Source: Gammaproteobacteria bacterium
GTDB lineage: Bacteria; Pseudomonadota; Gammaproteobacteria; Enterobacterales; Kangiellaceae
DNA: 64,000 bases
Direction: 5' to 3'
Assembly: GCA_013373545.1 (NCBI GenBank)
Contig: JABXHQ010000082.1
Location: 1 to 64,000 of the forward strand
Position numbers and translations under genes: made by a program. The number at the start of each line of letters is the position of its first letter. Position 1 is the first letter of the stretch. Shown here in pieces: positions 36,029 through 38,090 of this stretch. The notes below the pieces were generated by a model. The model worked only from the letters and a program-made list of their open reading frames with translations, searched no databases and was not told the DNA's origin.

Positions 36029-36889
36029 TTAAGCGACAATCGAAGCTTTCAGCTTTTTGATTGCGTTCTTTTCCAGCTGTCGTACACGCTCTGCAGAAAC
36101 TTGGTAATGATCTGCTAACTCCTGCAAGGTGGCTTTGTTTTCATCAAGCCAGCGGCGCTTTAAAATATCTTGGCTACGCGAGTCAAGCTGCTGCATTGCG
36201 GCAATTAACTTTTTCTCATGGTGCTCTTGCCAGTCGTTTTGCTCATAAGAAGTGGCAGGGTCTGCTGACTGATCTTCTAAGAACTGAGCTGGCGCAAATT
36301 GGGCACTGTCATCGTCGTCACCGGCGGGTGCATCAAATGCCATGTCACGCGCATTTAAACGCCCTTCCATGCGACGCACTTCGGCCTCACTGACGCCTAA
36401 GTCATTCGCTACTTGGGTTATTTCATCGTTACTAAACCAGCCCAATCGCTTTTTAGAGCCACGTAAGTTGAAGAATAATTTGCGTTGCGCTTTGGTAGTG
36501 GCAACTTTAACAATTCGCCAGTTGCGTAATACAAACTCATGGATTTCGGCTTTTATCCAATGCACGGCAAAGGAGATAAGACGAACGCCAACATCTGGAT
36601 CGAAGCGTTTTACCGCTTTCATAAGTCCGACGTTACCTTCTTGAATTAAATCGGCCTGTTGTAAACCGTAGCCGTTGTAGCTACGTGCAATGTGCACAAC
36701 AAAACGTAAGTGCGAGAGGATTAATTGTCGCGCCGCTTCTAAATCTTCATTATCGCGGAATCGACGCGCCAGCTCTCGCTCATCGTCAGCGCTTAGTACC
36801 GGGATCGCATTGACGGCATGAACATAAGCCTCGATGCTTCCTTGTGGCACTGAAAGTGCTAAATGTTGATTGGACAGCTGAGTATTCAT
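36029..36889 (-). CDS. rpoH: RNA polymerase sigma-32 factor
   Basis: RpoH box [40 protein letters not shown] Shine-Dalgarno before ATG. Confidence 0.98.
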
Positions 36890-36941
36890 AAGTCTCCTAA
36901 CGAGCAGCTAAGTCTTGTTACCAAAGGGTTTGCGGCAAATA

Positions 36942-36968
36942 TTAGCATTGTTAAAGCTGGAATGCTAA
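36942..36968 (-). promoter_or_regulatory. CIRCE-like element B (HrcA operator candidate), rpoH-proximal
   Basis: Minus strand TTAGCATTC-CAGCTTTAA-CAATGCTAA: 15/18 arm matches to CIRCE consensus TTAGCACTC-N9-GAGTGCTAA, exact N9 spacer. Confidence 0.75.
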
Positions 36969-36971
36969 TTT

Positions 36972-36998
36972 TTAGCAGTCTTAACCTTAGAGTGCTAA
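36972..36998 (-). promoter_or_regulatory. CIRCE element A (HrcA operator candidate)
   Basis: Minus strand TTAGCACTC-TAAGGTTAA-GACTGCTAA: 17/18 arm matches to CIRCE consensus, exact N9 spacer. Confidence 0.9.
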
Positions 36999-37031
36999 AT
37001 TAAGTAAAAGTTTCCGAATCTAAGACTCCCT

Positions 37032-37060
37032 TTTATAAGGGGCAAATGAGGCCTTTTCAA
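37032..37060 (-). promoter_or_regulatory. Candidate rpoH promoter (sigma-70 and/or sigma-32 compatible)
   Basis: Minus strand TTGAAA-N17-TATAAA; the same segment reads TTGAAA-N12-CCCCTTAT, similar in spacing to the E. coli groE sigma-32 promoter. Confidence 0.55.
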
Positions 37061-37106: not shown

Positions 37107-38090
37107 TTAAGTGGGTTCAATTTCGCGAATATGGCGGCCAACTGATAACCAGCTGCCCAATAAGCCAAGTCCGGTGGCGATGCCAATTAGCTGTAGTGCC
37201 TCGAACAGCCCAAGGCCACTAAGCTGAAATTGACTCTCATACAGCCCCGCTAAATTACGTACCGGATCTTTCAGCCAGAGCACGCTAAGGTTGACCAAAA
37301 GCCAACTGATGGTTCCGGCTAGAATGCCGTACCACAGGCCTGAATAAAGAAAAGGCCGGCGGATAAATGCATCGGTTGCTCCGACTAGTTTGATGATTTG
37401 GATTTCCTCGCGTTTGTTTTGAATTGCGAGGCGAATGGTATTACCGACAATTAACAGTACCGCGAGCCCAAGCAAAACGCCCAATGCACTTACCGCTCGT
37501 TGTGCGATATCCATCATACTGTAAAGTTTGCGCACCCACTGCAAATCGAGCTGAGCGAGTTCAATTTCCGGCATGGCTTGCAGCTCGCTCAGTAAATCGG
37601 CCGACGCTTGTGGTGAGCTATGCGCTTGTGTGGGTGTCACGACTAAGGTGTCGGGAAGCGGATTGTCGTCTAGCAGCGCAATAGCATCGCCGAATCCCGA
37701 TAGAGATTGAAACTCTGCCAAGCCTTCTGCTTTCGGAATGTACAGCACTGCAGCTATTTTGGGGGAGCGTTCTAAGTCACTGGTAAGTCGGGTAATTTGT
37801 TGGCTACTGAGCTGAGGTTTTAAGAACAACGATATTTGTGTGGCATTGTCCCAGCCACTGGACACTGCTTGGGCATTCTTAAGGAAAACATGAAAAGCGG
37901 CCGGCATTGCCAGCGCGATGGCGAGAACCGCAATGGTCATTAGGCTCGACAATGGCGTTCGAAACAACTCAGAAAGTCCTTTTCGACACTCAAGACTGTG
38001 CTGCCTTAGGCCCATCGCAATGCGCGACGAAAAAGTGCTGCCACTTGATAATTGAGCGCCTTTATTCGATTTTTCTTTTTGCTGGCTCAT
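37107..38090 (-). CDS. ftsX: Cell division permease FtsX
   Basis: Four-TM FtsX topology; follows ftsE with ATGA overlap; ftsYEX-rpoH order. Confidence 0.95.
   Translation of the reverse strand: MSQQKEKSNKGAQLSSGSTFSSRIAMGLRQHSLECRKGLSELFRTPLSSLMTIAVLAIALAMPAAFHVFLKNAQAVSSGWDNATQISLFLKPQLSSQQITRLTSDLERSPKIAAVLYIPKAEGLAEFQSLSGFGDAIALLDDNPLPDTLVVTPTQAHSSPQASADLLSELQAMPEIELAQLDLQWVRKLYSMMDIAQRAVSALGVLLGLAVLLIVGNTIRLAIQNKREEIQIIKLVGATDAFIRRPFLYSGLWYGILAGTISWLLVNLSVLWLKDPVRNLAGLYESQFQLSGLGLFEALQLIGIATGLGLLGSWLSVGRHIREIEPT

Follow-up and report, generated by a model that had tools for sequence, protein, structure and literature searches.

Predicted HrcA operators and an overlapping sigma-E-type promoter upstream of rpoH in Kangiellaceae and other Gammaproteobacteria

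The gene of the heat-shock sigma factor sigma32, rpoH, is preceded in a genome of the Kangiellaceae by two CIRCE dyads, which are very probably HrcA operators that repress rpoH. The upstream dyad, CIRCE1, overlaps a sigma-E-type promoter, an overlap first seen in the present analysis, and would cover the -10 of a promoter equivalent to P3 of E. coli; the downstream dyad, CIRCE2, would cover a candidate extended -10 of a sigma70 promoter. The most likely interpretation of the sequence is that HrcA gates the synthesis of sigma32 by GroEL capacity through blocking the sigma-E polymerase at rpoH. The locus lies in a 64-kb stretch of DNA, which is called the window below.

The rpoH locus and the predicted HrcA regulon

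The open reading frame at 36029..36889 on the minus strand (286 aa, start ATG) is assigned to RpoH because each genome of the family has one strong homologue of it (67-91% identity) and because of its position after ftsE-ftsX; rpoH follows ftsX in E. coli as well. The Shine-Dalgarno sequence of the gene, AGGAG, is found 4 nt ahead of the ATG (36894..36898, minus strand). Both CIRCE are situated inside the gap between the end of ftsX at 37107 and the start of rpoH at 36889. A pattern search on the minus strand gives CIRCE1 at 36998-36972 as TTAGCACTC-TAAGGTTAA-GACTGCTAA, with 17/18 arm matches, and CIRCE2 at 36968-36942 as TTAGCATTC-CAGCTTTAA-CAATGCTAA, with 15/18. The sequence, when re-read on the minus strand, confirms the description in the earlier note of two exact 9-N9-9 dyads that are 3 nt apart (the linker is AAA) and offset by 30 bp from start to start. 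Both have the architecture of the operator, TTAGCACTC-N9-GAGTGCTAA, for which up to three mismatches were accepted; CIRCE1 has one mismatch to this consensus and CIRCE2 has three. They are the only matches at that threshold in the window, where shuffles predict 0.01.

The absence of hrcA from the genome had been named beforehand as a result that would speak against HrcA control of rpoH. The gene is present as a 357-codon open frame directly upstream of grpE-dnaK, which matches PF01628 with 205 bits in a profile search of the genome. A search for CIRCE at groESL, dnaK and grpE, suggested in the same place, gave one site without mismatch at groESL, located 73 nt ahead of groES, and none within three mismatches at the hrcA-grpE-dnaK operon. 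Three CIRCE with at most three mismatches exist in the 195 contigs (3.63 Mb) of the genome, namely the two at rpoH and the perfect one at groESL, so that the predicted HrcA regulon consists of groESL and rpoH. At groES the CIRCE forms a unit with a sigma32-type promoter, in which the end of the spacer and the right arm form the -35, GGTTGAGTG, and the -10, CCCCATAT, follows (L002 = G000:C156:4671-4697; groES loci L091-L106). One kind of operator is thus placed over promoters for different sigma factors, of the sigma32 type at groES and of the sigma-E type at rpoH.

Promoter elements at rpoH

The -35 of the sigma-E-type promoter, GGAAACTT, is located at 37008..37015 and the -10, TCTAA, at 36987..36991, both on the minus strand. 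The -10 is contained in CIRCE1 and begins with the two bases that close the left arm and continues with the first three of the spacer. GGAAACTT-N16-TCTAA agrees with the pattern of a GGAACTT-like element and TCTNA at a spacing of 15-17 nt; compared with GGAACTT it has one inserted A, and the AACTT core is intact. When sequences of three genera, the window's own and two neighbours (g1, g4, g5), are aligned, GAAACTTT, just upstream of CIRCE1, forms an invariant block of eight columns 16 nt before TCTNA. AACTT precedes TCTNA in 27 of the 37 family genomes in which rpoH was detectable, with N16 in 24 and N17 in three. Seven Kangiella genomes have AACTT-N16-TCT(T/A) 14-23 bp higher and clear of the left arm (-10 positions by eye). 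P3 of E. coli rpoH, a sigma-E promoter (PMC8103513), reads GAACTT-N16-TCTGA, with the same spacing of 16 nt and at a comparable distance from the start of rpoH. The source genome encodes an RpoE of the sigma-E type, which scores 315 bits in a search with the profile TIGR02939 (cut-off 236). A sigma-E promoter of rpoE itself, which would represent the organism's own consensus, was sought by eye upstream of that gene and none was recognised.

The earlier note had placed a promoter-like sequence at 37032-37060. This sequence, TTGAAA-N17-TATAAA (37032..37060, minus strand), does exist, but only its CTTGAA(A) is recognisable in some relatives; strong conservation is seen instead for the sigma-E-type promoter at 37015-36987. 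The upstream sequence can also be read as sigma32-like, TTGAAA-N12-CCCCTTAT. CTTGAA(A) is present near the corresponding place in several congeners of the source genome; this recurrence and the sigma32-like reading suggest that rpoH may have an autoregulated upstream promoter. The candidate extended -10 of a sigma70 promoter, TGCTAATAT (36939..36947, minus strand), lies over the right arm of CIRCE2. It was compared with the TGNTATAAT-like extended -10, and the accompanying -35, TTAGCA (N18), is weak. The right arm of the rpoH CIRCE continues into TGCTAANAT, a candidate extended -10, and the third base past the right arm is T in 99/106 rpoH sites of the class survey described below vs 2/13 groES sites of the family.

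The gating of rpoH by HrcA proposed in the earlier note is supported by these data, but as an account of HrcA alone it was incomplete, since the sigma-E-type promoter under CIRCE1 had been missed. The position of CIRCE1 over this promoter indicates that control probably combines activation by sigma-E with repression by HrcA.

Distribution of the rpoH sites and of hrcA

The family sample comprised 40 Kangiellaceae genomes, 37 of them with detectable rpoH. A lack of conservation of the dyads in close relatives had been named as a second result against the proposal; all 35 hrcA-bearing family genomes with rpoH have a CIRCE of at least 16/18 (range 16-18) upstream of this gene. Two sites, each of at least 14/18, are found in 30 of the 35. 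The linker between them is usually 4 nt in the family (31-bp offset) and 3 nt in the window's genus (30 bp). CIRCE2 has decayed to 11 and 9 of 18 in two of the three hrcA-bearing congeners of the source genome (G038, G039), which, together with its weak score of 15/18 in the window, suggests that this second operator could be of minor importance in the window's genus.

The tandem form was sought in 84,980 species genomes as two CIRCE 3-5 nt apart, and the 35 loci obtained were sorted by their downstream genes: 19 precede rpoH, nine groES or groEL and six small heat-shock protein genes, and one is unclear. The tandem rpoH loci belong to Kangiella, Aliikangiella and relatives and to three other gammaproteobacterial MAGs (L052, L055 Thiotrichaceae, L059). 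The Hsp20-like genes, recognised by eye from the translation downstream of L037, L043, L047, L063, L065 and L067, are those of Arcobacter relatives and Sharpea/Erysipelotrichaceae. Outside the Kangiellaceae the rpoH CIRCE is mostly single; a neighbouring second site of at least 14 accompanies 3/106 class sites (G407, G087, G163), and a second rpoH CIRCE occurs in one genome of the order survey (G436). The tandem arrangement was therefore rejected as an essential or class-wide trait.

For the class survey 370 genomes were drawn evenly from the Gammaproteobacteria (353 with RpoH, 277 with hrcA), and the 129 rpoH upstream regions whose RpoH is most like that of the window were scored, the counts being uncorrected for phylogeny. 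A CIRCE of at least 15/18 is present at rpoH in 103/116 genomes with hrcA vs 3/13 without it (Fisher p about 1e-6, likewise uncorrected). Reversed regions (n = 129) scored 13 at most and none of the shuffled regions (n = 2580) reached 15; these shuffles and those of the window rule out a chance origin of the dyads. The geometry of operator and promoter is fixed, GAAC being found 16 or 17 nt before TC in 80 of the 106 class CIRCE sites (maximum 4 in 300 shuffles). Thirteen class genomes with hrcA gave no 9-N9-9 CIRCE of at least 15 at the rpoH examined; one of these has an N8 form (G136) and some have two RpoH. Two RpoH-like genes were seen in G416, G457, G486, G069, G198, G334 and G366, and CIRCE was scored at one copy in each.

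In the GTDB order of the window, which we take to contain E. coli as well, hrcA was found in 17/120 sampled genomes. The order genomes outside the family have a rpoH CIRCE of 17-18 in 8/8 cases with hrcA vs 0/16 without it. An organism-specific oddity is ruled out by the surveys of family, class and order. The earlier note had put forward the gating as a property of "this organism", a reading that holds but is too narrow: the arrangement is found in most of the sampled Gammaproteobacteria that have hrcA.

The overlapped promoter might belong to sigma70 or to a different ECF sigma factor, in which case repression by HrcA would be real but untied to envelope stress. About ten further, weaker ECF-like matches are present in the source genome, the -35 is GGAAACTT and not GGAACTT, and GAAC at N14-N18 is missing in 24/106 class sites. 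These points give the alternative a small but appreciable probability; against it, the AACTT-N16-TCTNA spacing is that of E. coli rpoH P3, a known sigma-E promoter, and a promoter of this type persists at rpoH in 9 of the 16 order genomes that lack hrcA. Recognition of the rpoH promoter by sigma-E is preferred.

Two family genomes, G037 of the window's genus and G004 of genus g2, have no hrcA anywhere in the genome by profile search, and nadK is directly beside grpE. Their rpoH CIRCE1 is down to 12 and 10 matches out of 18 and their groES CIRCE to 12 and 9, respectively, while AACTT-N16-TCT(A/T) at rpoH is retained. In family f68 the hrcA-less G104 and G220 have TGTGCACTC...GAGTGTTAA, 15/18, with the promoter intact, and the hrcA-bearing relative G309 has 18/18. 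In the family, class and order comparisons alike, the sites are conserved at orthologous promoters and lost together with hrcA, as is characteristic of operators.

Two further hrcA-less genomes may be recorded separately. In G120 (L185), a fragmented assembly in which hrcA was not found, a 17/18 CIRCE lies on the sigma-E-type promoter of rpoH; this exception is due either to an assembly gap or to a recent loss of hrcA. The rpoH upstream region of G425 (L251) has a CIRCE-like dyad of 13/18 exactly on the sigma-E -10, possibly a relic caught in decay.

HrcA may bind to rpoH and affect it marginally, the sites being kept mainly by the overlapping sigma-E and sigma70 -10s or serving to titrate HrcA. 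The CIRCE arms share bases with TCTNA and TGCTAANAT, so promoter constraint alone would preserve part of the arms, and one 16/18 dyad persists at rpoH in each of the hrcA-less G037 and G004. This explanation is nevertheless improbable, since the arm bases outside the promoter elements are conserved in genomes with hrcA and decay in those without it while the promoter elements persist, and since both CIRCE are intact in the seven Kangiella genomes whose promoter is displaced from the usual overlap. Least probable, and hardly to be expected, is that the dyads act as RNA, in hairpins of the rpoH 5' leader for mRNA stability or thermosensing: they are inverted repeats, they would be transcribed from a start farther upstream such as the promoter-like sequence at 37032-37060, and E. 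coli rpoH is regulated by mRNA structure, but the arm changes are mostly uncompensated (of 81 deviations, a two-sided change keeps Watson-Crick pairing in 4, 29 break pairing and 48 give G-U), in genomes without hrcA the dyads are degraded or absent, and a transcript from the sigma-E start would not include the whole of CIRCE1.

Proposed circuit and comparison with known systems

From the sites and their distribution we infer the binding of HrcA, the repression of rpoH, the recognition of its promoter by sigma-E and the logic of the circuit. Chaperonin sensing by HrcA is established in other bacteria and is assumed here for the source organism. When free GroEL is ample, HrcA would be folded and would occupy both rpoH sites, about three helical turns apart, to the exclusion of RNA polymerase. 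Bound HrcA would cover the sigma-E -10 and start and block the sigma-E polymerase, and CIRCE2 would add a further block, perhaps of a sigma70 promoter. Once GroEL is occupied by unfolded protein, HrcA would become inactive and rpoH transcribable, most strongly with active sigma-E. HrcA would repress groESL and rpoH, sigma32 would activate groESL and GroEL would restore HrcA, which would close a negative loop. At groESL, where CIRCE and a sigma32-type promoter overlap, the effect of HrcA would thus be twofold, direct and via sigma32. If this is true, transcription is the step at which sigma32 synthesis is coupled to the capacity of the chaperonin. HrcA/CIRCE and sigma32, usually presented as alternative or parallel, appear in series in most of the hrcA-bearing Gammaproteobacteria sampled, at the promoter by which sigma-E would feed into sigma32.

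We lean, with some reserve, towards the view that the composite of HrcA operator and sigma-E promoter at rpoH is an ancestral gammaproteobacterial unit. On this view, when hrcA was lost from E. coli and most of its order, the HrcA part of the unit went with it and the sigma-E part (P3) stayed. The textbook heat-shock circuit would then be derived and simplified, and chaperonin capacity in the cytoplasm (through HrcA) and envelope stress (through sigma-E) would both be sensed through a single short DNA element controlling the synthesis of sigma32. This provides a testable account of E. coli P3 as the remainder of a composite promoter minus its repressor. The hrcA losses in close relatives are clean natural experiments. 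A CIRCE relic at E. coli rpoH itself was looked for and rejected (best score 11/18).

A survey of exactly these regulons in gammaproteobacteria was reportedly made by Permina and Gelfand in 2003. In the openly readable literature no report was found of a gammaproteobacterial rpoH CIRCE, of the sigma-E overlap or of the class-wide pattern. As far as that literature goes, the overlap and the class-wide pattern of rpoH CIRCE are new, and part of this may be contained in the 2003 survey.

The HrcA/CIRCE system of the groESL and hrcA-grpE-dnaK operons, found in Bacillus subtilis and many other bacteria, shares with the present case the 9-N9-9 repeat, a repressor of the same family in the genome and an operator in the promoter or start region. 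It differs in that the target here is the gene of a heat-shock sigma factor, with two operators 30-31 bp apart and a sigma-E-type promoter overlapped, and in that the dnaK operon of the source genome has no CIRCE within three mismatches. E. coli rpoH P3 resembles the promoter described here in its GAACTT-N16-TCTNA at a comparable distance from the start of rpoH; E. coli, however, lacks a CIRCE at rpoH, and it also lacks hrcA, being absent from the control genomes with a PF01628 match.

The action of HrcA on rpoH is not new as an idea, since in 2004 a CIRCE was predicted upstream of rpoH in the deltaproteobacterium Geobacter sulfurreducens, as a single perfect site at -51 (Rodionov et al. 2004, PMC545781, Table 8). 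As in the source genome, CIRCE at rpoH and at groESL are found there side by side in one genome. The G. sulfurreducens case differs by the single rpoH site and by an additional CIRCE at hrcA-grpE-dnaK-dnaJ, and the part of that paper considered here mentions neither a sigma-E overlap nor a gammaproteobacterial case. Dual control of groE by RpoH and HrcA has been described in Agrobacterium and Xylella (cited in PMC11764788). The two heat-shock circuits meet at groESL in these bacteria as they do in the source genome, where the sigma32-type promoter is joined to CIRCE. The account cited presents RpoH and HrcA as acting in parallel, whereas in the source genome HrcA would additionally be placed above RpoH.
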